Positions 6,184 to 58,981 of a stretch of 64,000 nt of DNA are shown one piece after another. Location of the stretch: assembly GCF_013001025.1 (NCBI RefSeq), contig NZ_CP053021.1, positions 1,178,001-1,242,000 of the forward strand, in the 5' to 3' direction. Within the stretch, counting starts at the first letter, position 1, and every line of letters starts with the position of its first letter. A program made the translations under genes and the position numbers. Below the pieces are notes generated by a model. It ran no database searches. It was given only the letters and a program-made list of their open reading frames with translations, and was not told the origin of the DNA. This DNA is from Sphingobium yanoikuyae (GTDB lineage Bacteria > Pseudomonadota > Alphaproteobacteria > Sphingomonadales > Sphingomonadaceae).

Positions 6184-7671
6184 ATGGTCGAACTCGTGAA
6201 ACTCAATGCCGCTCCCGAAGAGGGCGGGCTGGAACTGCCGCGCAACGTCGAAGCGGAAGCTGCGCTGCTCGGCGCGCTGATGATTGACAACCGCATCGCG
6301 GAGGATGTGCAGCTCAAGCTGAAGCCCGAACATTTCTTCGAGCCACTACATGGCCGCATCTATGAGGCGGTGATGCGCCTGATCGAGCGCGACATGATCG
6401 CCAATCCGGTGACGCTCAAGCCGATGCTGGAACAGGATCCGGCGCTCAAGGAACTGGGCGGCGCGGCCTATCTGGCGCAACTCACCGGCAGCGGCGCGGC
6501 GCTGCTGGGGGCGCGCGACTTCGCGACCCAGATCTATGACCTTGCCCTACTTCGTCAACTTGTGAACGTTGGTCGAGAACTGGTTGATAATGCTCTGGAT
6601 ACCAGTGAGGATGTCAATCCGCGCGAGCAGATCGAGCTGGCCGAAGTCGCGCTTTACAAAGTGTCGGAAGGCGAGGGCGAGAGCGGGTCGGTCAAGAGCT
6701 TCCTTTCGGCCTCCACCATGGCGGTACAGGTGGCTGAACGTGCGCTCAACAGCGGCGGCCATGTGTCGGGTATCACCACCGGCATCAACAGCCTCAACGA
6801 GAAGATCGGTGGTCTGCACAATTCCGACTTGATGATCCTGGCCGGTCGTCCGGGCATGGGCAAGACGTCGCTGGCGACCAATATCGCCTATAATGCGGCG
6901 TCGCGCTGGCTGCGCGACCATAATGACGGCATCCCGCCGGAAAAGAATATGGGCGCCAAGACCGCCTTCTTCAGCCTCGAAATGTCCGCCGACCAGCTCG
7001 CCACCCGCGTTCTGGCCGAACAGTCGGGCATCAGCGGCGAAGCGCTGCGCATGGGCAAGATCAGCCGGGCGGACTTCCAGAACCTGTCGCGCGCCGCGCG
7101 CGATCTGCAGGAACTGCCGCTGTTCATCGACGACACGCCGGGCCTGACGATCGCCGCGCTGCGCACCCGCGCCCGTCGCCTCAAGCGCCGTCACGATGTC
7201 GGCTTCATCGTCGTCGACTATCTCCAGCTGCTGCAGGGCAGCGGCAAGGCGGGCGATAGCCGCGTCAATGAAATTTCGGAAATTTCCCGTGGTTTGAAGA
7301 CGTTGGCGAAGGAACTTCATGTCCCTGTGCTGGCGCTGTCGCAGCTCAGCCGTGCGGTGGAACAGCGCGAGGACAAGCGTCCGCAGCTGTCCGACCTTCG
7401 CGAATCGGGCTCGATCGAGCAGGACGCGGACATGGTCTGGTTCGTGTTCCGCGAGGATTATTATGTCGCCGCCAAGGAGCCGGGCAACAAGGAAGGCCCC
7501 GAGCATCAGGAATGGGTGCAGGAGATGGAGCGCATCTACGGCCTGGCTGAAGTGATCGTCGCCAAGCAGCGTCACGGTTCGACCGGCCGTATCCGCATGA
7601 AGTTCGACGCCAAGATCACGCGCTTCTCGGATCTGGCTGAGGGCAGCTCTTACCTCGAAGACCTCGAATAA
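6184..7671 (+). CDS. dnaB: Replicative DNA helicase DnaB
   Basis: Hexameric 5'-3' helicase at the replication fork, 495 aa, the normal length. The N-terminal DnaB domain (about 15-115) is followed by the RecA-like core. Walker A is GRPGMGKTS at about residues 221-229 and Walker B is FIVVDYLQLL. Also present are the DLRESGSIEQDAD segment and the C-terminal KQRHGSTG arginine-finger region. Met-Val-Glu at 6184 is the first in-frame start. No intein or insertion is seen. Confidence 0.97.
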   Translation: MVELVKLNAAPEEGGLELPRNVEAEAALLGALMIDNRIAEDVQLKLKPEHFFEPLHGRIYEAVMRLIERDMIANPVTLKPMLEQDPALKELGGAAYLAQLTGSGAALLGARDFATQIYDLALLRQLVNVGRELVDNALDTSEDVNPREQIELAEVALYKVSEGEGESGSVKSFLSASTMAVQVAERALNSGGHVSGITTGINSLNEKIGGLHNSDLMILAGRPGMGKTSLATNIAYNAASRWLRDHNDGIPPEKNMGAKTAFFSLEMSADQLATRVLAEQSGISGEALRMGKISRADFQNLSRAARDLQELPLFIDDTPGLTIAALRTRARRLKRRHDVGFIVVDYLQLLQGSGKAGDSRVNEISEISRGLKTLAKELHVPVLALSQLSRAVEQREDKRPQLSDLRESGSIEQDADMVWFVFREDYYVAAKEPGNKEGPEHQEWVQEMERIYGLAEVIVAKQRHGSTGRIRMKFDAKITRFSDLAEGSSYLEDLE

Positions 7672-44286: not shown

Positions 44287-44375
44287 CCCGGGTAGGGCGT
44301 AAATTTCCACTAAGAATTGACCCATGTTGAACTCGTCCCTGGCTTTGGCAAGCGAGGGTATATGGAGTGTTGGAC

Positions 44376-45899
44376 ATGGCGTTATTGAGCGTTATCCGGC
44401 GCTGGCATTTTCGCGATCATCTACCGATCCGGGAGATAGCGCGGCGCACCGGACTATCACGCAACACGATCCGCAAATATTTGCGGTCCGAGACGATCGA
44501 TCCGCGATTCAAGGTGCCTGATCGACCAAGCAAACTGGATCCATTTGCTGAGCATCTGGCGGCCTGGCTGCGGCGCGAGATGGGCCGATCGCGCAAGCAG
44601 AAGCGCACGATCAAGCAGTTTCACGCCGATCTGGTGAGCCTGGGTTATGAAGGATCCTACAACCGGGTTGCCGCTTTTGCTCGGGACTGGCGCGAAGATT
44701 ATCGGCGCCAGCAACAGATTGGCGGGCGTGGGACATTCGTGCCCCTGTCGTTCGCGCCGGGGGAAGCTTTCCAGTTTGATTGGAGTGAGGACTGGGCAAT
44801 CATTGCCGGGGTTCGGACCAAGCTGCAGGTCGCGCACTTCAAGCTCAGTTACAGCCGGGCATTCATCGTGCGCGCCTACCTTCTGCAAACCCATGAGATG
44901 CTGTTCGACGCCCATAATCACGCCTTCCGCGTGCTGGGCGGCGTGCCGCGCCGGGGTATCTATGACAATATGCGCACGGCCGTCGACAAGGTCGGGCGTG
45001 GCAAGGAACGCACCGTCAACGCACGCTTTCTGACGATGGTCAGCCACTATCTGTTCGAAGCCGAGTTCTGTAACCCGGCTGCGGGATGGGAAAAGGGGCA
45101 GGTCGAGAAGAATGTCCAGGATGCGCGGCACCGTCTGTGGCAACCCACGCCGCAGGCCGAGAGCCTTGATGCGCTGAACCTGTGGCTGGAGGAGCGCTGC
45201 AAGGCGTTATGGGAGGACATCTCTCACGGGATCGAACCCGGGTCGGTTGCCAATGCCTGGGCCGATGAATCTGAGTGTCTGATGGTTGCGGGCAGGCCCT
45301 TCGATGGTTTTGTGGAATATCGCAAACGGGTATCGCCGACCTGCCTCATCCACTTTGAGCGCAATCGCTACAGCGTACCGGCCTCTTTCGCCAATCGCAC
45401 TGTCAGCCTGCGCGTCTATCCTGATCGCTTCCAGGTCGTCGCCGAGGGGCAGCCAATCTGCGCACATCAGCGCATCATCAACCGCTCTCACGACGGTCCA
45501 GGTCATACGGTTTATGACTGGCGCCATTATCTGGCGGTCGTGCAGCGCAAACCCGGCGCCCTGCGCAACGGAGCGCCCTTCCTTGAGCTACCCGATGCGT
45601 TCCAGCGTCTGCAGCGACATCTGTTGCGCAATCCCGGCGGCGACAGGGAAATGGTCGAAATACTGGCGCTGGTTCTTCATCATGATGAGCAACTGGTGCT
45701 GACGGCGGTCACCATGGCGCTGGAGGCTGGCGTTCCGACCAAGACCCATATCCTCAATCTGCTCTATAGGCTGGTCGACGGAAAACCGATCTCCACGCCG
45801 CCGGTGACGGCGCCCCAGGCGCTCAAACTGGTCAGCGAGCCGATGGCCAATGTCGAACGCTATGATGATCTGCGCAAGGAGAAGCGTCATGCGTCATGA
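44376..45899 (+). CDS. istA: IS21-family transposase IstA
   Basis: A DDE transposase of 507 aa. An N-terminal HTH ([20 protein letters not shown]) binds the ends, and the catalytic core has aspartates in FQFDWSEDW and YDNMRTAV and the glutamate region [11 protein letters not shown]. The ATG at 44376 follows GGAG; a GTG three codons earlier is an alternative. It overlaps istB by 11 bp. It appears intact. Confidence 0.93.
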
Positions 45900-46695
45900 C
45901 CCTGCCAGCGGCGCCATCGTCGTCATGCTCCGCAGCCTCAAGATGCATGGCATGGCGCAGGCCGTCACCGATCTCATGGAACAGGGATCTCCAGCCTTCG
46001 AAGCCGCCATCCCGATCCTCTCCCAGTTGCTCAAAGCCGAGACAGCAGAACGGGAGGTTCGGTCTGTGGCCTATCAGCTCAAGATCGCGCGCTTCCCTGT
46101 CTATCGCGATCTGGCCGGCTTCGACTTTACCAGTAGCGAGGTCAATGAAGCTCTAGTGCGTCAGTTGCATCGCTGCGACTTCATCGACATCGCCGACAAT
46201 ATCGTGCTGGTCGGCGGTCCTGGCACCGGCAAGAGCCATGTGGCAACGGCGCTGGGCATCCAGGCCATCGAACATCATCGAAAGCGCGTCCGCTTCTTCT
46301 CGACGGTCGAACTGGTCAATGCGCTCGAGCAGGAAAAAGCACAGGGCAAGGCCGGTCAGATCGCCAATCGCCTCCTGCACTCCGATCTCGTTATCCTGGA
46401 TGAGCTTGGATATCTGCCGTTCAGTGCTTCAGGTGGCGCGCTGCTCTTCCATCTACTGAGCAAACTCTACGAGCGCACCAGCGTCATCATCACCACAAAC
46501 CTGAGCTTCAGCGAATGGGCCACCGTGTTCGGCGACGCCAAAATGACCACGGCGCTTCTCGATCGGCTTACCCATCACTGCCACATCCTGGAGACCGGCA
46601 ACGATAGCTTCCGCTTCAAAAACAGCTCTGCCAAGCAGGCCAGAACCCAAAGGAGAAAACCACGGGTTGACCCACCCATGACACCCGAAACATAA
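45889..46695 (+). CDS. istB: IS21-family transposition helper ATPase IstB
   Basis: A 268-aa AAA+ ATPase that directs target choice for IstA. Walker A is [11 protein letters not shown], Walker [14 protein letters not shown], and the sensor stretch [14 protein letters not shown] is present. ATG at 45889 follows AAGGAGA. It is full length, so the element may be active. Confidence 0.93.
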
Positions 46696-47619: not shown

Positions 47620-49221
47620 TCAGCGTTGATTGCTTACTACGGACCATTCCAGCTCGAAGCGTCCCAAATACTTTCGCAAGCGATCCGCATCATTCGAGCT
47701 GCTGCGGCGTGCGCGCGAGGCGTTGAAGAGGGTTCGCCCTGCTTCGGAAAGCGAGCGGCTGCCACGGCATATCCTGATCGTCTCGGCGAGTTGGACGCGA
47801 TCAAACAGGTCGAGTTCGGCAATCTGCTCGTCGCTCAATATCTCGGACAGAATGTCTGCGGCGTTGTCAGCCTGACCTGACCATAGCCGTCGCAGTCGCT
47901 CGATTTCCTTGTCGACGCAGTCCACATCGATCCGCCCCTTCGGGCTGAGCGTCGCCATTCGCGTCACACTGGCGGCAAGGTCCCGGAAATTGCCCGGCCA
48001 GCTTGCCTCCCCGGACGTCGCAAAGGTCAGATAGCGTTGGCGTGCTTCCTTGTTGAAACTGGCCTGATCGCCTTCGCGCTCGGCGAACCTATCAAGCTCA
48101 TAGTCGAGATTAGGCTCGATATCCTCTCGTCGGTCAGCGAGGCCGGGCAGACGGAAGGTCCAAAGATTTAGGCGCGCGTACAGGTCGTCGCGGAATGCCC
48201 CCGCTGCCACTGCTTCGCCCAGATCGCGATTGGTGCCGGCGATCAGCTGGAAATCCGACGCGACCTCCTTGTCCGCACCCACGGGGAGGAAGCGCTTGTC
48301 CTCAATGGCGCGGAGGATCATCGCCTGCTCATCGAGGCCCAGTTCACCGATCTCGTCGAGGAACAGCATGCCCTTGTCAGCGGAACGGAGCAGACCCGGC
48401 CGGTCGGCAACCGCGCCGGTGAAGGCGCCCTTTCTGTGGCCAAACAGGGCCGACATGGCGCTATCGCCCTTCAGGGTTGCGCAGTTTACCTCCACGAACG
48501 AGCCGGCAATCTGGTGCTTGGCCTTCTTCAGTTCATAGATCCGACGCGCGAGCTGGCTCTTGCCCGCGCCAGTCGGCCCCATGAGCAACACGGGCGCGCG
48601 GGACCGCAGCGCGACTTGCTCGATCTCGTCTATCATGCCGTTGAAGGCGGCGTTGCGCGTGTCGATGCCGGATTTGAGGAACGACGTGCTCTCGGCGCTC
48701 GCGACAGCGAAGCGGGTGGCGATGCTGTCATAGCGCGACAGATCGAGATCGATGATGCTCCAGCGGCCAGGCGCTCCGCTATCTTCGGCGCGCTTGGCCG
48801 GCTGAGTCTGGAGAAGGCGCCCCGGCAAATAGCGGGCCTCGGTCAGCAGGAAGAGGCAGATCTGTGCGACGTGCGTGCCGGTGGTGATGTGGAGGAGGTA
48901 ATCCTGCTCGTCCGGATCGAACGGCTCGGCCCGTGCGAAATCGAGCAGCTTTCCATAGACCTCCTCGAAGTCCCACGGATCGCGGAAGTCGAGTACGCGC
49001 ATATCGACCTGGGTCTCGGGTGAGACCGAGGCGATATCCTCCGCGACATATTCAGCAAGGCGCCGGTGGGCTGTGCCATGAAGCAGCACCAGTCGATCGA
49101 CCCGCAAATCTTCATGCATGGTGAGTGCGACCGTCGGTCGCCACTTGTTCCAGCGCGAAGGCCCGAATTTGCTCGCATCGAGCGTGGAGCCAAGGAATCC
49201 GATCACGGTCAGCGGTTTCAT
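47620..49221 (-). CDS. rtcR: RtcR, sigma-54-dependent activator of the RNA repair operon
   Basis: A 533-aa activator: an N-terminal CARF-like ligand-sensing domain (about 1-185; VIGFLGSTLDAS, VLLHGTAHRRLAEYV, HITTGTHVAQICLFLL), an AAA+ domain (Walker A GPTGAGKS at about 214, the sigma-54 contact loop GAFTGA, LFLDEIGELGLD) and a C-terminal Fis-type HTH (EAGRTLFNASRA). RtcR of enterobacteria responds to damaged tRNA and turns on rsr-rtcBA from a sigma-54 promoter. Here it is divergent from exactly such an operon. Confidence 0.95.
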   Translation of the reverse strand: MKPLTVIGFLGSTLDASKFGPSRWNKWRPTVALTMHEDLRVDRLVLLHGTAHRRLAEYVAEDIASVSPETQVDMRVLDFRDPWDFEEVYGKLLDFARAEPFDPDEQDYLLHITTGTHVAQICLFLLTEARYLPGRLLQTQPAKRAEDSGAPGRWSIIDLDLSRYDSIATRFAVASAESTSFLKSGIDTRNAAFNGMIDEIEQVALRSRAPVLLMGPTGAGKSQLARRIYELKKAKHQIAGSFVEVNCATLKGDSAMSALFGHRKGAFTGAVADRPGLLRSADKGMLFLDEIGELGLDEQAMILRAIEDKRFLPVGADKEVASDFQLIAGTNRDLGEAVAAGAFRDDLYARLNLWTFRLPGLADRREDIEPNLDYELDRFAEREGDQASFNKEARQRYLTFATSGEASWPGNFRDLAASVTRMATLSPKGRIDVDCVDKEIERLRRLWSGQADNAADILSEILSDEQIAELDLFDRVQLAETIRICRGSRSLSEAGRTLFNASRARRSSSNDADRLRKYLGRFELEWSVVSNQR

Positions 49222-49358
49222 TCTTATACCATAGGATAAAAGAGTATCTTTTTCGATATGAAATTTGATCGCTATTGAGCGGACTGTATTGCGCCAAAAG
49301 AAAATATATCTATATATATCAATGATATGTGAATTTCCTTCGCCCCCCTCCTGCGGAT
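49222..49358 (+). promoter_or_regulatory. AT-rich upstream region of the sigma-54 promoter
   Basis: About 135 bp between rtcR and the -24 element, strikingly AT-rich around 49300-49330. Upstream activator sites for RtcR and an IHF-type bend are expected here; I see no clean palindrome to call an operator. Confidence 0.4.
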
Positions 49359-49374
49359 TGGCACACCTCCTGCA
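49359..49374 (+). promoter_or_regulatory. Sigma-54 (-24/-12) promoter of the rsr-rtcBA operon
   Basis: TGGCACACCTCCTGCA matches the consensus TGGCAC-N5-TTGCA closely, with GG at 49360-49361 and GC at 49372-49373, exactly 12 bp apart. It reads away from rtcR into the tRNA-Pro-like element and rsr. The start site is expected near 49385. Confidence 0.9.
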
Positions 49375-49406
49375 AATTGGATTGGTGTCGGCAGAGGCGG
49401 ATTACT

Positions 49407-49460
49407 CGGCCAGCAGGCGGAACTGGGGCGGTCGGAATGGGCTGGCCGCCCCAAGGGCCG
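49407..49460 (+). other. Leader hairpin ahead of the tRNA-like element
   Basis: TGGGGCGG (49424-49431) and CCGCCCCA (49446-49453) form an 8-bp perfect stem, enclosed by CGGCC/GGCCG (49407-49411, 49456-49460). It lies between the expected transcription start and the tRNA-Pro look-alike, and may be part of a structured leader. Confidence 0.5.
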
Positions 49461-49468
49461 GAAATTCA

Positions 49469-49546
49469 CAGGGCGTAGCTCAGTCTGCGCAGAGCGCCTG
49501 CCTTGGGAGCAGGAGGCCGCAGGTTCAAATCCTGCCGCCCTGACCA
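49469..49546 (+). tRNA. tRNA-Pro(TGG)-like element in the leader of the Ro60 operon
   Basis: A full cloverleaf can be drawn: acceptor CAGGGCG/CGCCCTG, D stem GCTC/GAGC, anticodon stem CCTGC/GCAGG with loop CTTGGGA (anticodon TGG, proline), T stem GCAGG/CCTGC with loop TTCAAAT, then A73 and encoded CCA. The C1-G72 pair and A73 are proline-tRNA identity features. The D loop (AGTCTGCGCA) lacks the G18-G19 pair needed to dock with the T loop, and the element sits after the sigma-54 promoter and 17 bp before rsr. A regulatory or decoy mimic is more likely than a housekeeping tRNA. Confidence 0.8.
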
Positions 49547-49562
49547 GATGAGGAGTTGGACG

Positions 49563-51110
49563 ATGGCCAACAAGGGACTGTTTGCGAGCGCCGTGGCGAA
49601 GCTGCTGCCGCCCGCCGATACGTTGAACCGGGAGGGTGCGCCGGCCTACGCCTATGTGCCGAAGGCGAAGCTCGCCCAGTTGGCGGCAACCGGCACACTG
49701 GCCGATGATTTCTATGGCGCGGCGGAGACGCAGCTTGCCGATGTGCTGGATGCGGCCCGCGCGGTTGATCCATATTTCGTCGCCCAGGCTGCGGTCTATG
49801 CCCGCACGTCCGGCGCGATGAAGGACATGCCGGCTTTGCTGGCGGCCTATCTGACGGTTGCGGATCCCGACCTCGCGGTTCGGGTGTTCGGCAAGGTCGT
49901 GAACAACGGCCGCATGCTGCGCAGCTTCGTTCAGATTATGCGGTCAGGTCAGGTCGGGCGGACGTCGCTCGGCACGCGGCCGAAGCGCTTGGTGCAGCAG
50001 TGGCTGGAGCAGGCGTCGATCCGTGACCTGATGCACGCTGCGACCGGCGCTGCGCCGAGCCTGGCGGACATCGTCAAGATGGTCCACCCGCGCCCAGCGG
50101 GTGCGGAGCGCAAAGCTTTCTATGGCTGGCTGATCGGTCGTCCCTATGACGTCGCCGCTCTGCCCGTCGAGATCGCCGCGTTCGAGGCTTGGAAGCAGGA
50201 TCAGGCGCTGCCGCTGCCGCAGGTGCCCTTCGAGTGGCTGACCGCTCATTCGCTGAGCGCGGAGCAGTGGGCGGAGCTTGCCGGCCGTATGGGCTGGCAG
50301 GCGTTGCGGATGAACCTTAACACGCTGGCGCGCAACCGTGCGTTCGGGGTGGAAGGGCTCACCGATCAGGTCGCGGCCCGGCTTGCCGACTGCGATGCAC
50401 TCCGTGCCGTGCGGCCCATGCCCTATCAGTTGATGGTGGCATTAGGTCAGGTCGGCGACGGCGTGCTGCTCAAGGTACAGGCGGCGCTGGAGGAGGCGCT
50501 GGAGTTCTCTCTGGCGTGCGTACCGAAGGTGCCGGGCCGCGTGGTCGTCTGCCCCGATGTGTCTGGGTCGATGCAATCGCCGGTGACGGGCTACCGCAAG
50601 GGCGCTTCGTCCATGGTTCGCTGCATCGATGTCGCGGCTCTGGTCGCGGCGGCGATGTTGCGGTCAAACCGTAAGGCGCGGGTTATTCCGTTCGAGCAGG
50701 CGGTCGTGCCGGTGACGCTGAAAGCTACCGACCGGATCGGGGCGAATGCGGCGAAGCTGGCAGCGGTCGGCGGTGGCGGGACGAATGTCTCGGCGCCTCT
50801 CGCACTCCTCAACAAGGAAAAGGCGGCGGTCGATCTGGTGGTTATCGTCTCGGACAATGAGTCTTGGGTCGATGCGCAGCGGATCGGCTCGACGGCGACG
50901 ATGCAGGAATGGACGAAACTGGCGAAGCGCAACCCGCAAGCTAAACTCGTCTGCATCGACATCGCGCCCTACGGTACCACGCAGGCGGCTAGCCGGCGGG
51001 ACATATTGAATGTCGGAGGCTTCTCCGACGCGGTGTTCGACACCATTGCGCGCTTCGTCTCCGGCGAGACGCGCGACTGGGTGAGCATCGTCGAACAAGT
51101 GGAGGTCTAA
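49563..51110 (+). CDS. rsr: Ro60-family protein (TROVE and vWA domains), Rsr
   Basis: A 515-aa ring-shaped RNA-binding protein. An N-terminal TROVE domain of HEAT-like helices (about 15-320) is followed by a von Willebrand A domain (about 325-515) with the MIDAS motif DVSGSMQS near 332. Ro60 proteins bind Y RNAs and misfolded or damaged RNAs and hand them to nucleases. The start MANKGLF follows GAGGAG. It lies between a tRNA-like leader and four Y-RNA-like genes, in the order promoter-rsr-YRNA-rtcB-rtcA. Confidence 0.94.
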   Translation: MANKGLFASAVAKLLPPADTLNREGAPAYAYVPKAKLAQLAATGTLADDFYGAAETQLADVLDAARAVDPYFVAQAAVYARTSGAMKDMPALLAAYLTVADPDLAVRVFGKVVNNGRMLRSFVQIMRSGQVGRTSLGTRPKRLVQQWLEQASIRDLMHAATGAAPSLADIVKMVHPRPAGAERKAFYGWLIGRPYDVAALPVEIAAFEAWKQDQALPLPQVPFEWLTAHSLSAEQWAELAGRMGWQALRMNLNTLARNRAFGVEGLTDQVAARLADCDALRAVRPMPYQLMVALGQVGDGVLLKVQAALEEALEFSLACVPKVPGRVVVCPDVSGSMQSPVTGYRKGASSMVRCIDVAALVAAAMLRSNRKARVIPFEQAVVPVTLKATDRIGANAAKLAAVGGGGTNVSAPLALLNKEKAAVDLVVIVSDNESWVDAQRIGSTATMQEWTKLAKRNPQAKLVCIDIAPYGTTQAASRRDILNVGGFSDAVFDTIARFVSGETRDWVSIVEQVEV

Positions 51111-51117
51111 ACAAACA

Positions 51118-51277
51118 GGGTCGTGGCGAATGCTGGCAGGACTACATGTCACCAGAGGAGGCCCGACGAGTAAAGCACCCGGAAGGCAGTTGTGCCGAAA
51201 GGGAGATGCGGGTTCGAACCCCGCCGCCGACACGTAGCTTAAGGGCCGCGTCTTGCCGAACCTCGTCGCCACGACCC
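51118..51277 (+). ncRNA. Y RNA 1
   Basis: The ends pair over 12 bp: GGGTCGTGGCGA (51118-51129) with TCGCCACGACCC (51266-51277). The conserved box GGCGAATGC (51125) and an inner stem GGCAGGA/TCTTGCC (51235... paired at 51135-51141 and 51251-51257) follow, then GACTACAT (51140). Inside is a tRNA-like T arm (GCGGG, loop TTCGAAC, CCCGC at 51208-51224). The acceptor/D-arm part (GTAGCTTAA) is less regular than in the other units. Y RNAs bind Ro60 through the GGCGAA stem. Confidence 0.8.
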
Positions 51278-51287
51278 AACCAGATTA

Positions 51288-51430
51288 TCACGGCGAATGC
51301 CGAGAAGGACTACATTGGTAATGTGGTTGTCGCGGGTTTAAGTCCCGCCTGTATCGGCAACGATACAGTAGCTCAGCTGGATAGAGCGCCGGTCCCTCGG
51401 GACGGTCTTTCTCACTTCTCGTCGCCGTGA
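51288..51430 (+). ncRNA. Y RNA 2 with permuted tRNA module
   Basis: Outer stem TCACGGCGA/TCGCCGTGA (9 bp, 51288-51296 and 51422-51430); inner stem GAGAAGGAC/GTCTTTCTC (51302, 51405). The module runs T arm (GCGGG, TTTAAGT, CCCGC), acceptor 3' strand CTGTATC (51349), a 6-nt cap GGCAAC, acceptor 5' strand GATACAG (51362), then D arm GCTC/GAGC. The order T-acceptor-D is a circularly permuted tRNA with its natural ends joined, opened in the anticodon region. Confidence 0.88.
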
Positions 51431-51446
51431 CCGAAATGCAAAAAAA

Positions 51447-51596
51447 CATGGCGAATGCCTGACAGACTACATGGCCTATCACGCCCCAGATGCGGGTTCG
51501 AATCCCGCCGGACCGCCCAATCGGTCCGTAGTGTAACGGTAGCACAGGGACCGTCCGCAAGGATGGAGAGAAGTCTGTCAAAACCTCGTCGCCATG
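51447..51596 (+). ncRNA. Y RNA 3 with permuted tRNA module
   Basis: Outer stem CATGGCGA/TCGCCATG (51447, 51589) and inner stem TGACAGACT/AGTCTGTCA (9 bp, 51460, 51572). The module has a T arm (GCGGG, TTCGAAT, CCCGC at 51492-51508), a 7-bp acceptor CGGACCG/CGGTCCG (51509, 51522) capped by CCCAAT, and a D arm GTGT/GCAC. Stem sequences differ from unit 2 while pairing is kept, so the structure is supported by covariation. Confidence 0.88.
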
Positions 51597-51610
51597 GCAC
51601 AGAAATTTGA

Positions 51611-51736
51611 GCTGGCGAATGCCGGCGGGACTACATGGTCAGAGCGCCTGCCCACGGGCAGGAGGTCGGCGGTCCGACCCCGCCTCCGGGAAACCGGATA
51701 GCTCAGGGAAATGTCTCGCCACATCTGGTCGCCGGC
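51611..51736 (+). ncRNA. Y RNA 4, permuted through the D loop
   Basis: Outer stem GCTGGCGA/TCGCCGGC (one G-T, 51611 and 51729), inner stem GGCGGGAC/GTCTCGCC (51624, 51713). The tRNA-like body is almost complete: GAGC (51642), an anticodon-type hairpin CCTGCC..GGCAGG, variable part, T arm GGCGG/CCGCC with loop TCCGACC, acceptor TCCGG capped by a GAAA tetraloop with CCGGA (51694), then GCTC (51701) pairing back to GAGC. Unlike units 2-3 it is opened in the D loop, keeping the anticodon arm. Confidence 0.85.
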
Positions 51737-51761
51737 ACCATTACTATACAGGGAGGTCGCT

Positions 51762-53000
51762 ATGACCGAGAGCAGGACTTACGATATTCAGCACGTCGAG
51801 GGCGGCAAGCCGATCAAGCTGTGGACGCGCGGCGTGCCGGTCGACGAGAAGGCGCACGAGCAGCTCCGCAAGGCGGCGCAGATGCCCTTCGTGTTCAAGC
51901 ATGTGGCGGCCATGCCGGATGTGCATGTCGGCATCGGTGCGACCGTTGGCTCGGTGATCCCGACCAAGGGCGCGGTGATCCCGGCGGCGGTGGGCGTCGA
52001 CATCGGCTGCGGCATGATGGCGACGCGCACCTCGCTGATGGCGAGCGATCTTCCGGACAATCTGGAGGGCATCCGCTCGGCGATCGAGCAGGCGGTGCCG
52101 CATGGCCGTTCGGTTGGTCGTGGCCAGCGCGATCATGGCTCGTGGGGGGCACCGCCGGTCGAGATCGTGGACGCCTGGGCGACGCTCGTGGAACGGTTCG
52201 ACCGGATCACGGTGAAATATCCGCGGTTCAAGAACACGAACCAGCTAACCCATCTGGGAACGCTGGGAACGCTGGGGACGGGCAACCACTTCATCGAGCT
52301 TTGCCTCGATACCGAGCAGCGCGTGTGGATCATGCTCCACTCGGGTTCGCGCGGCGTGGGGAATGCGATCGGCACGTTCTTCATCGAGCTGGCCAAGCAG
52401 GACATGCGCAAGTGGTTCATCAACCTGCCCGACGAGGATCTGGCCTACTTTCCGGAAGGGACCGATCATTTCGATGACTATGTCGAGGCGGTCAAGTGGG
52501 CGCAGGACTTCGCGGCGCTGAACCGGCGGATGATGATGACCAATGTGATCCGGGCGCTGCGCGGACAGATCGCCAAACCTTTTGACGCTGAACTGGAAGC
52601 GGTGAACTGCCATCACAACTATGTGACGCGGGAGAACCATTTCGGCCAGAATGTGCTCGTGACCCGCAAGGGCGCGGTGCGCGCGGCGAAGGGCACGATG
52701 GGCATCATCCCGGGTTCGATGGGCGCGAAATCGTTCATCGTGCGCGGTCTCGGCAATGCGGAATCGTTCGAGAGCTGCAGCCATGGTGCGGGGCGCGTGA
52801 TGTCGCGCACTCAAGCCAAGAAGCTGGTCTCGCTCGACGAGCATATCGCCGATACGGCGGGCGTCGAATGCCGCAAGGACGAGAGCGTCATCGACGAGAC
52901 GCCCAAGGCCTACAAGCCGATCGAAGCCGTGATGGCCGCCCAGGCCGATCTGGTGGAGATCGTCCATACGTTGAAACAGGTGGTGTGCGTGAAGGGGTAA
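51762..53000 (+). CDS. rtcB: RNA-splicing ligase RtcB
   Basis: A 412-aa GTP- and Mn-dependent ligase that joins 2',3'-cyclic phosphate (or 3'-phosphate) RNA ends to 5'-OH ends, repairing cleaved tRNA. The metal-site cysteine is in AVGVDIGCGM (about residue 83), further ligands in GTGNHFIE and HSGSRGVGN, and the guanylylated histidine in SCSHGAGRVMSR (about 341). The start MTESRTYD follows GGGAGG. It lies directly after the four Y RNAs. Confidence 0.96.
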   Translation: MTESRTYDIQHVEGGKPIKLWTRGVPVDEKAHEQLRKAAQMPFVFKHVAAMPDVHVGIGATVGSVIPTKGAVIPAAVGVDIGCGMMATRTSLMASDLPDNLEGIRSAIEQAVPHGRSVGRGQRDHGSWGAPPVEIVDAWATLVERFDRITVKYPRFKNTNQLTHLGTLGTLGTGNHFIELCLDTEQRVWIMLHSGSRGVGNAIGTFFIELAKQDMRKWFINLPDEDLAYFPEGTDHFDDYVEAVKWAQDFAALNRRMMMTNVIRALRGQIAKPFDAELEAVNCHHNYVTRENHFGQNVLVTRKGAVRAAKGTMGIIPGSMGAKSFIVRGLGNAESFESCSHGAGRVMSRTQAKKLVSLDEHIADTAGVECRKDESVIDETPKAYKPIEAVMAAQADLVEIVHTLKQVVCVKG

Positions 53001-53026: not shown

Positions 53027-54040
53027 ATGATCATCATTGACGGATCGGAAGGTGAAGGTGGCGGGCAGGTGGTGCGCAATGCGTGCGCGCTTTCTCTCGT
53101 CACCGGCAAGGCCGTCCGTATCGAGAATGTCCGCGGCAAACGCTCCAAGCCGGGGCTCATGCGTCAGCATGTGACCGCGGTTGAGGCTTCGTGCACCATC
53201 GGCAATGCCGAATGCCAGGGGCTTCATGTTGGCTCGTCCGCGCTCAGCTTCGTGCCGGGCCGCGTTGTGCCGGGCGAGTATCGCTTCGCCGTCGGCACCG
53301 CAGGTTCGACGGGGCTTGTCCTGCAGACGGTGCTGATGCCGCTGCTGCTCGTCGATGAACCGTCACGGCTGGTGCTGGAAGGTGGGACGCACAACATGCT
53401 CGCGCCGCCGTTCGACTTCATTGCGAAATGCTTCCTGCCGATCATCAATCGTATGGGTCCGAAGGTGGAGGCCCGGCTTGTCCGGCACGGCTTCTACCCG
53501 CGCGGTGGCGGTCGGATCGAGGTTGATATCAATCCGGCGCCGTTGCGGCCCATCGACTGTCTGGAGCGCGGAGCTCTGATGGGCGTCAGCGGTCAGGCGC
53601 TGTTTGCCGGCCTGCCGTTCGAGATTGCGGAGCGCGAGATCAATGTCGTGCGCCGCGATCTCGGTTGGTCGGAGCGAGAAGCCTGCGTGCGCGAACTGCC
53701 GGACGATCAGGGGCCGGGCAACATCCTGTTGCTTGAGGCGCAGTTCGAGCATGGAACCGAAATCGTCAGTGGCTTCGGCCAACTGGGCGTAACAGCCGAG
53801 CGGGTGTCCAAGAAGGCTGTCGGGCGTATGCTTGGGTTCCTAGAATCCAATGCCTTTGCCGGCCCCTATCTGGCCGATCAGCTGCTGCTACCCTTCGCGC
53901 TTGCAGGCGGCGGCAGCTTCACAACGGTCAAGCCGAGCCAGCATAGCCTCACCGCGATCGAGGTGATGGGGCGTTTTCTGGATCGACGCCTTGGGTTTGC
54001 TCAGCAGCCGGGAGGGACGCATCTGCTGACCGTTCGATGA
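53027..54040 (+). CDS. rtcA: RNA 3'-terminal phosphate cyclase RtcA
   Basis: A 337-aa enzyme converting RNA 3'-phosphates to 2',3'-cyclic phosphates, which RtcB can ligate. The opening IDGSEGEGGGQVVRNA and LRxxHV-type RSKPGLMRQHVTAV are family hallmarks, with the adenylylated histidine near 306 in VKPSQHSLTAIE. ATG at 53027 follows CAGGGGG. It is the last gene of the RtcR regulon here. Confidence 0.94.
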   Translation: MIIIDGSEGEGGGQVVRNACALSLVTGKAVRIENVRGKRSKPGLMRQHVTAVEASCTIGNAECQGLHVGSSALSFVPGRVVPGEYRFAVGTAGSTGLVLQTVLMPLLLVDEPSRLVLEGGTHNMLAPPFDFIAKCFLPIINRMGPKVEARLVRHGFYPRGGGRIEVDINPAPLRPIDCLERGALMGVSGQALFAGLPFEIAEREINVVRRDLGWSEREACVRELPDDQGPGNILLLEAQFEHGTEIVSGFGQLGVTAERVSKKAVGRMLGFLESNAFAGPYLADQLLLPFALAGGGSFTTVKPSQHSLTAIEVMGRFLDRRLGFAQQPGGTHLLTVR

Positions 54041-57346: not shown

Positions 57347-58921
57347 ATGGCACGGCCACGGAAAAGCAGGCGTTCGCGTAAGGTGGTGAAGCTAGAGCAG
57401 GCGACCGGCACGCGAAAGGCGTTGCTATATACGCGTGTGTCATCGCCAGAGCAGGAGCGAGAAGGGTTTTCGCTAGATGCTCAGGAGAACCTGCTTCGTG
57501 ATTACGCCGTTCGCAACGGATATCACATCGTTAGTCGGCATATTGACGTGGAAACGGCAAAATCTACTGGCCGAACAGAATTTGCAGCAATGCTAAAATA
57601 TTTCAAGGATCATCGTAGTGTTAGGATATTGCTGGTCGAGAAGGTTGATCGACTTTATCGTAATATGACAGATTATCTGGAAATTGATAATCTGGATATA
57701 GAAATACATCTAGTTAAAGGGGGTGTTATTATATCAAAAGAATCAAAATATTCGGAGAAGTTTATTCATGGAATCAAAATTTTGATGGTCAAGAATTACG
57801 TAGACAATCTATCTGAAGAAACAAAAAAGGGTCTTTTGGAAAAGGCAAGCCAAGGTATTTGGCCGACGCACGCGCCGACGGGATATATCAACGTTCTCGG
57901 TTCCGCAGGGAAAAGGATTATCATTCCTGATCCTGAAGCTGCACCACTTGTCATCAAACTTTTTGAATGGATGGAGACAGGAGAATATTAGCTTGCTGAA
58001 ATTACCGAGAAAATCCGCGATGCTGGCTTAAGAAGTAAGCTGACCAAGCAGATTGTTGGGCGCAGCTCAATTCATCACATGTTACGAAATCCGATTTACA
58101 TCGGCCGGATCGAATGGCGAGGCGAAAGCTTCCGAGGCGTCCACCAGCCTCTCGTCAGTTCCCTGACATGGAATAACGTTCAAGAGCTGCTGGATCGCCG
58201 GAGTGTAAAAAACACTCATGGCGACCAGCTGCGTTTCGCGTTCACAGGCCTCATAACTTGTGGTCATTGCGGGTGCGCGGTTGTCGCCCAAATGCAGAAG
58301 AAGCGCTATGTCTATTATCATTGTTCTGGGTTCAGGCAGAAATGCCCGGAAAAATATGTCCGGGAAGAAACGCTAGTCGAGGCTTTCGCTCAGCAACTTG
58401 CCCGCCTGCAGGTCGATGACGAGATATTCTCGTTGATCGAACGTGCGATCGTTGACGCTCAACGCGACGAGGACAAGGGGCGCAATGAAGAAATTATGCG
58501 GTTGAAGGCGGAGGCTGATCGCCTACAGGTCCGCATGGATAAGCTGTATGTTGACCACCTCGAGGGCAGGATTCCTGCGGACATGTACGACCGACTAGCC
58601 TCTGAATGGCGGGATGAGCGTATGCAGAGCTTGGAGCGGCTGGAAGGATTTCGTGAGGTTGATGATGCCTTGATAGGCGATGGCATCGAACTGCTGGATT
58701 TGGCTCGAAAGGCCCATCAAACCTTCGTTTTGCAGTCTCCAAGTGACAAAATCAGCGTTCTGAAATTGCTACTTTCGAACTGTACATGGCCCAACGGCGA
58801 ACTCACCGTCGAGTTCCGTGAACCTTTTGCAATGCTTGAGAAAATTTCCCCTGGAGCACCCGCTCTCAGCGCCCCGTCCGGAGGCTCTGAAGCAGAGTGT
58901 CCAAATTGGCTCCCCGAGTAG
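57347..58921 (+). pseudogene. Large serine recombinase interrupted by one in-frame TAG
   Basis: The 525-codon frame encodes a catalytic domain (ALLYTRVSSPEQEREGFSLD, serine in RVSS), a recombinase domain (RSSIHHMLRNPIYIGRIEW), a zinc ribbon (ITCGHCGCAVVAQ, then HCSGFRQKC) and a coiled-coil tail. A single TAG at 57989-57991 falls in the hinge (TGEY*LAEIT); the frame is otherwise intact. The last codons (PNWLPE) lie inside tRNA-Asn. The RBS is GAGG before ATG. Without suppression the enzyme would be truncated after 214 residues. Confidence 0.85.
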
Positions 58922-58981
58922 GATTCGAACCTACGGCCATTCGATTAACAGTCGAATGCTCTACCGCTGAGCTATCGGGGA
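58907..58981 (-). tRNA. tRNA-Asn(GTT)
   Basis: Acceptor TCCCCGA/TCGGGGA, D stem GCTC/GAGC with GCGGTA loop, anticodon loop CTGTTAA (GTT), T arm with loop TTCGAAT and stem GTAGG/CCTAC, discriminator G and encoded CCA. Its 3' end overlaps the last 15 bp of the serine recombinase frame, marking this tRNA as the likely integration site of the element. Confidence 0.95.

Follow-up and report, generated by a model that had tools for sequence, protein, structure and literature searches.

Four tandem Y RNAs with tRNA-like heads, seemingly of two topologies, in an RNA-repair operon of Sphingobium yanoikuyae

Genes and leader elements of the locus

In the window (i.e. the whole stretch of 64,000 nucleotides of Sphingobium yanoikuyae DNA that was analysed), four adjacent Y RNA units are encoded on the + strand between rsr, which ends at 51107, and rtcB, which starts at 51762 (Table 1). 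The parts of an RNA-repair operon of the RtcR/sigma54 type are all present, i.e. an RtcR equivalog, a sigma54-like site, rtcB and rtcA. The product of rsr scores 56.2 bits over residues 18-502 against the Rsr model NF041674, far under the cut-off of 900, and 22.2 against TROVE, just under 23. Despite the shortfall against NF041674 it is regarded as a divergent Rsr, since it lies above the cut-off of PF25045.

Table 1 Features of the operon and its surroundings (positions in the window)
Feature	Position	Strand	Basis and remarks
rtcR, sigma54-dependent activator	47620..49221	-	NF038308, 834.7 bits (cut-off 650); divergent from the operon
rtcR, sensor domain	within 47620..49221	-	PF06956, 277.7 bits
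sigma54 -24/-12 promoter-like site, TGGCACACCTCCTGCA	49359..49374	+	regex match
Leader hairpin	49425..49452	+	11 bp, loop AATGGG; found by script
tRNA-Pro(UGG)-like gene	49469..49546	+	ARAGORN and Rfam; downstream of the sigma54-like site and ahead of rsr
rsr (Ro60 relative), divergent branch	49563..51107	+	PF25045 (Ro60 vWA), 73.1 bits versus a cut-off of 27.7
Y RNA unit 1 (class A)	51118..51277	+	160 nt; read as D-loop-entry tRNA mimic; entry helix GGCCC/GGGCC, D stem AAGC/GCTT
Y RNA unit 2 (class B)	51288..51430	+	143 nt; YrlA-type, predicted to be entered from the anticodon side; D arm closed; GCAA loop on the acceptor helix
Y RNA unit 3 (class C)	51447..51596	+	150 nt; YrlA-type, predicted anticodon-side entry; acceptor loop C-CCA-AT with CCA relic
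Y RNA unit 4 (class D)	51611..51736	+	126 nt; mimic read as D-loop-entered; D stem GAGC/GCTC; arm of 6 bp with a loop of 4 nt at the anticodon position; AGGTC as variable loop; T arm; GAAA loop on the acceptor helix
rtcB, RNA ligase	51762..52997	+	PF01139, 430.9 bits
rtcA, RNA 3'-phosphate cyclase	53027..54037	+	PF01137, 243.2 bits; NF003246, 406.7 bits

For comparison, an Rsr search gave 30 loci, of which L001-L027 are alphaproteobacterial, with rsr complete or nearly so, while L028 and L029 come from other groups; L030, which is cut by a contig end, was dropped, and together with the window 30 loci were counted. Upstream of rsr, all 28 alphaproteobacterial loci contain a match to the sigma54 regex, which follows the -24/-12 consensus and was applied without a chance control. 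Between this site and rsr (or the tRNA-like gene, where present) lies the leader hairpin, with the loop pattern AATNNG, which was found in 28 of the 30 loci (all 28 alphaproteobacterial ones), with compensatory changes in its stem and one mismatch in L007. Searching the genome for the hairpin with up to two mismatches returned one match, an exact one, and the reversed control also returned one.

The tRNA-Pro(UGG)-like gene of the operon has GC in its D loop where the housekeeping Pro-UGG gene, elsewhere in the genome, has GG. In 16 of the 28 alphaproteobacterial loci, ARAGORN places a tRNA-like gene immediately in front of rsr; 12 of these genes are Pro(UGG), and by eye all 12 have the same GC for the housekeeping GG; the gene is altered in L001, L003, L011 and L022, and in L005 a tRNA-Pro(UGG)-like gene (7138-7215) comes after the array. 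A narrow pattern combining the odd D loop with the UGG anticodon arm matched two of 246 genomes of the order, i.e. that of the window (G000) and G171, both of which carry units of class A (the class of unit 1), and none of the 9 further genomes in which the class A model has a match.

Further away, an IS21-type istA/istB pair (PF22483 and PF01695) lies upstream of the operon, at 44367-46695, and a gene split over two ORFs (57347-57991 and 58079-58921), presumably that of a recombinase, ends beside a tRNA-Asn gene (58907-58981, - strand), which may mark the end of an island.

Identity of the four units and their relatives

The units start at exactly the positions given in the original prediction, i.e. 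51118, 51288, 51447 and 51611. The boxes GGCGAATGC and GACTACAT, which had been claimed to stand at fixed spacing, are indeed separated by 15 nt in units 1, 3 and 4, and by 16 nt in unit 2. With the 15-nt gap, the box pair has 3 matches in the window versus 0.00 expected (100 shuffles, at most 1 mismatch), and with the 16-nt gap it has one match, without mismatch, in a search that permitted 3 mismatches and for which 2.19 matches are expected by chance. In all four units the Y stem consists of two parts and contains the boxes AATGC and ACTACA. The outer stems differ between the units and each has its own 3' partner, as had been predicted, with 11, 8, 7 and 7 contiguous pairs in units 1-4 (by script); by script as well, an outer stem of at least 5 pairs closes around the boxes in 115 of 121 units from the 30 loci. 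Every unit folds better than the mean of its own shuffles, with MFE z-scores of -3.2, -5.1, -3.7 and -2.5 for units 1-4, and for unit 4 an equally good folding was reached by 3 of 200 shuffles.

The best Rfam family of all four units is YrlA (RF02553), with 51.2 bits for unit 2, 47.1 for unit 3, 30.5 for unit 4 and 26.8 for unit 1, all of which are below the gathering score of 69 bits; at the Rfam gathering threshold, the window contains two tRNAs only. The Rfam scores alone are not proof, since the whole-genome RF02553 search listed units 2, 3 and 4 and not unit 1, and since matches below the cut-off also occur in 7 of 14 control genomes. Taken together, the best match to RF02553, the position of rsr directly upstream (unit 1 starts at 51118, so that the array is encoded right beside the Rsr/Ro60 relative) and the gene order rtcR-rsr-Y-rtcB-rtcA back the claimed Y RNA identity. 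Judging from sequence and covariation, the four units are bacterial Y RNAs, each with a tRNA-like head.

A weak YrlA match elsewhere in the genome (G000:C1:293707-293801, L033) was rejected, as it consists of two adjacent broken tRNA halves in which no Y boxes were seen. These halves are parted by CCA and a few bases, and such junctions resemble a permuted tRNA. That the YrlA model also matches broken tRNA halves of this kind, together with the CCA relics in some acceptor loops (see below) and the tRNA-Lys(CTT) called by ARAGORN inside a class D unit of L012 (6974-7051), would agree with the array being a row of decayed tandem tRNA genes, and not Y RNAs at all. However, ARAGORN finds no tRNA in any of the window's four units, the outer stem closes around the boxes in the great majority of units (115/121) and units are found after rsr in 28/28 alphaproteobacterial loci, which makes decayed tRNA genes an extremely improbable explanation.

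The argument that sequence changes with preserved pairing reveal structured RNAs, originally made from the four units, is borne out by their relatives: in every class, the covariation score was reached by 0 of 500 shuffles (which ignore relatedness), in alignments of 28, 15, 7 and 16 sequences for the classes of units 1, 2, 3 and 4, respectively. The number of further pair types, one of five covariation measures, is not outstanding for class D, where 309 of 500 shuffles reach it, and for the class of unit 2 (82 of 500), and in the class of unit 3 the number of double-changed pairs was reached by 18 of 500 shuffles. Because MAFFT misplaced the entry helix of nine L007-like class A rows and part of the acceptor in four class D rows, the covariation of both classes is undercounted in these rows. 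The sequences used to build the models R1 and R2 are also those in which class A and class D covariation was counted.

A pattern search gave 121 units in the 30 loci, 2 to 6 per locus. All 28 alphaproteobacterial loci have 2-6 units after rsr, exactly one of which belongs to class A. Sorting by regex divided the 121 units into 28 of class A, 15 of class D, 48 with a closed D arm, 25 of class E and 5 others; one of the others (L016 7018) reads as class D and was used as such, at least 3 of the E units look anticodon-entered on reading (L007 6850, L014 7007 and L015 6858), and a pattern match that lies inside rtcB (L008 7724) was dropped. Within the arrays of three loci there are also short Y RNA units that lack a tRNA-like head and measure 76-79 nt (L011 7008, L012 6882 and L021 6992).

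With class A model matches in 11 of 246 genomes of the order, and Rsr matches in 8 of 385 genomes of the class (one weak) and 12 of 398 of the phylum (two weak), the distribution of the Rsr/Y RNA system is patchy. A plasmid search returned two Novosphingobium records, one of which is 75% identical over 65% of the query, namely its rsr part. Since DNA 75% identical to the rsr part is found on the plasmid record of Novosphingobium sp. THN1 (NZ_CP028348.1, 36465-38076, a replicon of 1.16 Mb), the operon can lie on a plasmid-class replicon. In a phage search, 23 records contained Rsr relatives, all below 60% identity; that of Myxococcus phage Mx1 (OR576727.2, 56915-58561) is 43% identical over the whole protein.

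As the four units are parted by short linkers only, the array could also be thought of as a set of cis-acting structures in a polycistronic message, where they would protect its rsr and rtcB portions or keep them apart. A search of 49200-51800 for sigma70-like promoters and terminators gave none, which agrees with such a message yet says little, since only 0.6 and 1.6, respectively, are expected by chance. The Y boxes, the T loop, the CCA relics and the occurrence of units beside rsr in distant alphaproteobacteria go beyond what a spacer would be expected to contain, and a role purely in cis is therefore considered very improbable.

Topology of the tRNA-like heads

Units 2 and 3 share one order of elements, i.e. 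inner stem, T arm, a loop-capped acceptor helix, a D arm that is closed and again the inner stem. By their predicted structure they are permuted tRNAs entered from the anticodon side, which is the known YrlA layout, and the RF02553 alignment follows their T arm and acceptor. In the class of unit 2 (15 sequences), two-sided changes are present in 3/3 pairs of the short anticodon-side stem and 5/8 acceptor pairs; in the class of unit 3 (7 sequences), they are present in 2/4 D-stem pairs and 1/7 acceptor pairs.

In unit 4, the 5' part is made up of the inner stem, GGTCA, a D strand (GAGC), the arm at the anticodon position, AGGTC and the T arm, and the 3' part of the acceptor helix with its GAAA loop, TA, the other D strand (GCTC), AGGG and the inner stem. 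Its D stem thus closes across the Y stem, from which it follows that the Y stem would enter through the D loop. The layout of class A is that of unit 4 plus an extra entry helix. Units 1 and 4, which both keep the anticodon-position arm, the T arm and a sealed acceptor arm, are best read as D-loop-entered permuted tRNAs, in which the D stem is formed by the strands that flank the Y stem. The T loop of unit 4 has a C at the position that TruB would modify, which counts against the explanation proposed below. The original prediction had been silent on tRNA-like heads, as well as on units 1 and 4 being wired unlike units 2 and 3.

For class D, RNAalifold predicts the D-loop-entry cloverleaf unaided from 16 relatives, including the D stem. 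Among the 16 loci, two-sided changes are found in 4/6 anticodon-position pairs, 3/5 acceptor pairs and 1/5 T-stem pairs, while the D stem is invariant among the 16 sequences and therefore uninformative with respect to covariation. The arm at the anticodon position has a loop of 4 nt in 17 of 27 parsed class D units (strict pairing) and of 7 nt in two (L012 and L163); the other eight have loops of other lengths, of which those in L009, L017 and L025 appear long through a mismatch. Because the acceptor strands are joined by a loop and the arm is mostly capped by 4 nt, a class D RNA would lack a free CCA end and, in most cases, a 7-nt anticodon loop. As to which tRNA is imitated by unit 4, tRNA-Ala(GGC) is the best match in the host (26), ahead of tRNA-Asp (23) and the operon tRNA-Pro (21), and the imitated tRNA was left unnamed.

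In class A (28 sequences), two-sided changes are present in 3/5 entry-helix, 2/4 D-stem and 3/3 anticodon-position pairs. The structure as a whole has 69 double-changed cells, a number reached by 0 of 500 shuffles, versus at most 10 when the partners are slid. Over 38 class A units, the D stem is AAGC/GCTT in 24, GAGC/GCTC in 8 and ATGC/GCAT in 2, with a wobble in two more (GAGC/GCTT and GAGT/GCTC, 1 each) and a mismatch of one pair in the remaining 2. On the Rsr tree of 36 rows (L095 and L096, whose class A units are identical to those of L002 and L023, were left out of the tree, though kept in the tally of 38), the AU and GC states of the D stem need 6 and 7 changes; independent compensations may nevertheless be few, since replacement or exchange of whole units may explain some of these changes. 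Over the four classes, the D stem covaries in A and C and the acceptor in B, C and D, whereas the T stem is nearly invariant, with one covarying pair (class D). RNAalifold on class A predicts neither the entry helix nor the D stem and pairs CUAC with GUAG instead, and the single-sequence MFE structure of unit 1 also differs from the D-loop-entry structure.

The CUAC/GUAG pairing is one of the points that would speak for all four units being ordinary YrlA-type RNAs, in which case a degenerate tRNA-like head would have been misread as entered through the D loop in units 1 and 4. In addition, class A has a very short acceptor arm, in which 2-3 pairs are seen by eye and one is counted in covariation, and RF02553 still gives units 1 and 4 scores of 26.8 and 30.5 bits. 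However, the RF02553 alignment leaves the core of both units mostly as unaligned stretches. CUAC/GUAG, although the choice of RNAalifold, was rejected as the class A structure because it has no two-sided change, and it is further disfavoured by the persistence of the ACTACA box in the three units without a tRNA-like head (L011 7008, L012 6882 and L021 6992). Moreover, the distant D stem covaries in class A, and the 13 distinct unit-4-like heads listed by the head parser are all without a D arm closed locally; in two tRNA-Leu-like heads the parser calls a closed D arm by means of an inner-stem strand, which is taken as spurious. It is therefore improbable that units 1 and 4 are of the ordinary type.

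Units read as D-loop-entered are also found outside the order. The class D model has matches in 70 of 398 genomes of the phylum, and the matches of at least 42 bits, in 8 of the 398, all lie within ~1.2 kb of rsr. D-loop-entry units were read in G000, G276, G434, G287 and G508 (76.9 bits or more), i.e. besides the window's genome in four genomes outside the order with similar units, and in G257, G430 and G447, where the matches have 42-51 bits, the matching units may be Y RNAs of other kinds; the match in G430 overlaps a unit with a closed D arm. The matches below 40 bits in the other 62 genomes were mostly taken for cross-matches to tRNA arrays, without one-by-one reading; at least one of them, that in G342 (39.2 bits), adjoins rsr and marks a genuine locus of Y RNAs. 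A unit resembling unit 4 has a GCGC/GCGC D stem in place of GAGC/GCTC in G434 and G508, and each of these genomes has one unit that by eye reads as a tRNA-Leu in permuted form, its variable arm being long (GTCGAAAGAC and GCCGAAAGGC). Two genomes of another alphaproteobacterial family have larger and more diverse Y RNA arrays adjoining rsr (L162 2979-3929 and L163 2979-3959, - strand), with tRNA-Leu-like D-loop-entry heads that have a long variable arm.

The acceptor loops offer a clue to the origin of the heads. CCA is found at the start of this loop in 20 of 82 distinct parsed heads, where ~1.3 would be expected at one triple in 64, a count that is descriptive only because related species are not independent, and at least 4 of the 82 heads were parsed with a wrong acceptor. 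In 19 of the 20 heads with CCA (L011 being the one without), a single discriminator-like base comes first, as at the 3' end of a mature tRNA; unit 3, with CGGACCG-C-CCA-AT-CGGTCCG, is among them. These CCA relics suggest that the heads came from real tRNA genes, with the 3' part placed ahead of the 5' part.

Possible function and relation to known systems

Overall, the explanation that fits best, and is considered probable, is that the operon encodes four Y RNAs of two wirings, whose tRNA-shaped heads would be held by Rsr and serve as docks for proteins. Transcription of the array would be driven by the sigma54 promoter and switched on by RtcR when broken tRNAs accumulate. Rsr would bind the Y stem, and the heads would dock proteins that recognise the elbow or the arms of tRNA (e.g. 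decay, modification or repair factors) onto the Rsr particle, in which case several differently wired heads in one operon would amount to several different handles. Binding of Rsr to the Y stem and docking of a partner by the head are what is to be expected from the YrlA and Deinococcus precedents (PMC8394870, PMC4726728). YrlA has been reported as a substrate of TruB and DusA (PMC8394870), and in the Deinococcus RYPER particle (Rsr, Y RNA and PNPase) the Y RNA tethers Rsr to PNPase (PMC7790460; PMC4726728). The RtcR of Salmonella oligomerises on 5' tRNA halves that end in a cyclic phosphate, and of three tested the halves of tRNA-Leu(UAG) were bound best (PMC7790460); according to the same work, the authors' own studies did not address the role of Rsr and Y RNA in RNA-repair operons (Hughes et al., PMC7790460).

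The function of the heads could in principle be that of Rsr-tethered handles or that of decoys. As decoys, tRNA bodies without an anticodon loop would occupy a tRNA-attacking nuclease, toxin or enzyme, and would not tether partners to Rsr. The 4-nt loop at the anticodon position in most class D units (17/27) and the resemblance of different heads to different tRNAs would suit such a role, and competitive inhibition of an anticodon nuclease by YrlA is raised as a possibility by Hughes et al. (PMC7790460). On the other hand, an anticodon nuclease would be expected to need precisely the loop that is missing, no nuclease is known at the locus, and the conserved Y stem argues that Rsr is part of the function, so that decoys are seen as a possible but rather unlikely alternative to handles on an Rsr particle.

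It is also conceivable, though doubtful as a whole, that the array represents a kit of tRNA mimics, made from tRNAs that were cut and rejoined at two places, i.e. the anticodon and the D loop. The D-loop set would keep a nearly complete tRNA body (in some species of type II, with a long variable arm), its anticodon loop mostly replaced and its CCA end sealed; each head held by Rsr would capture a different tRNA-handling or tRNA-attacking protein, the kit would be switched on by broken tRNAs, and the operon tRNA-Pro would be an additional member, of linear form.

The two topologies would show that there has been more than one way of grafting tRNA-like heads onto Y RNAs. With its two permutation sites and several tRNA-like bodies, the array would constitute a natural series for testing which part of the tRNA shape is recognised by a partner, because one topology is without the anticodon arm, whereas the other has retained the stem of this arm and, for the most part, lost the loop. 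The joining of two of the four units to their handle via the D loop would seem to be a new way of building a tRNA mimic: a literature search of partial coverage provisionally returned no Y RNA with D-loop entry, nor a tRNA gene in this operon.

Circular permutation in itself is already in print for YrlA, the crystal structure of which superposes on tRNA in this manner (PMC11472068), while the D, T and acceptor arms of its tRNA-like head are described in a review (PMC8394870). With Salmonella YrlA (RF02553), the window shares the Y stem, the rsr-Y-rtcBA operon and the permuted tRNA-like head, which units 2 and 3 follow. Unlike YrlA, all four units of the window score below the family cut-off and form a single array, units 1 and 4 are read as entered through the D loop and keep the anticodon-arm position, and some heads contain a CCA relic. 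The likeness to the Y RNA of Deinococcus is one of role, since tethering is proposed for the heads of the window too. With the rtcR-rtcBA RNA-repair operon, the locus has in common the divergent rtcR, the sigma54-like site, rtcB and rtcA, and it differs in the tRNA-Pro(UGG)-like gene with its odd D loop between the promoter-like site and rsr, as in 12 of 28 alphaproteobacterial loci. In the permuted tRNA genes of red algae and some archaea, the 3' part precedes the 5' part and the intervening stretch can carry CCA. The units of the window would resemble these genes in having the 3' part ahead of the 5' part, but their ends are held in the Y stem, so that release of a tRNA would not be expected.
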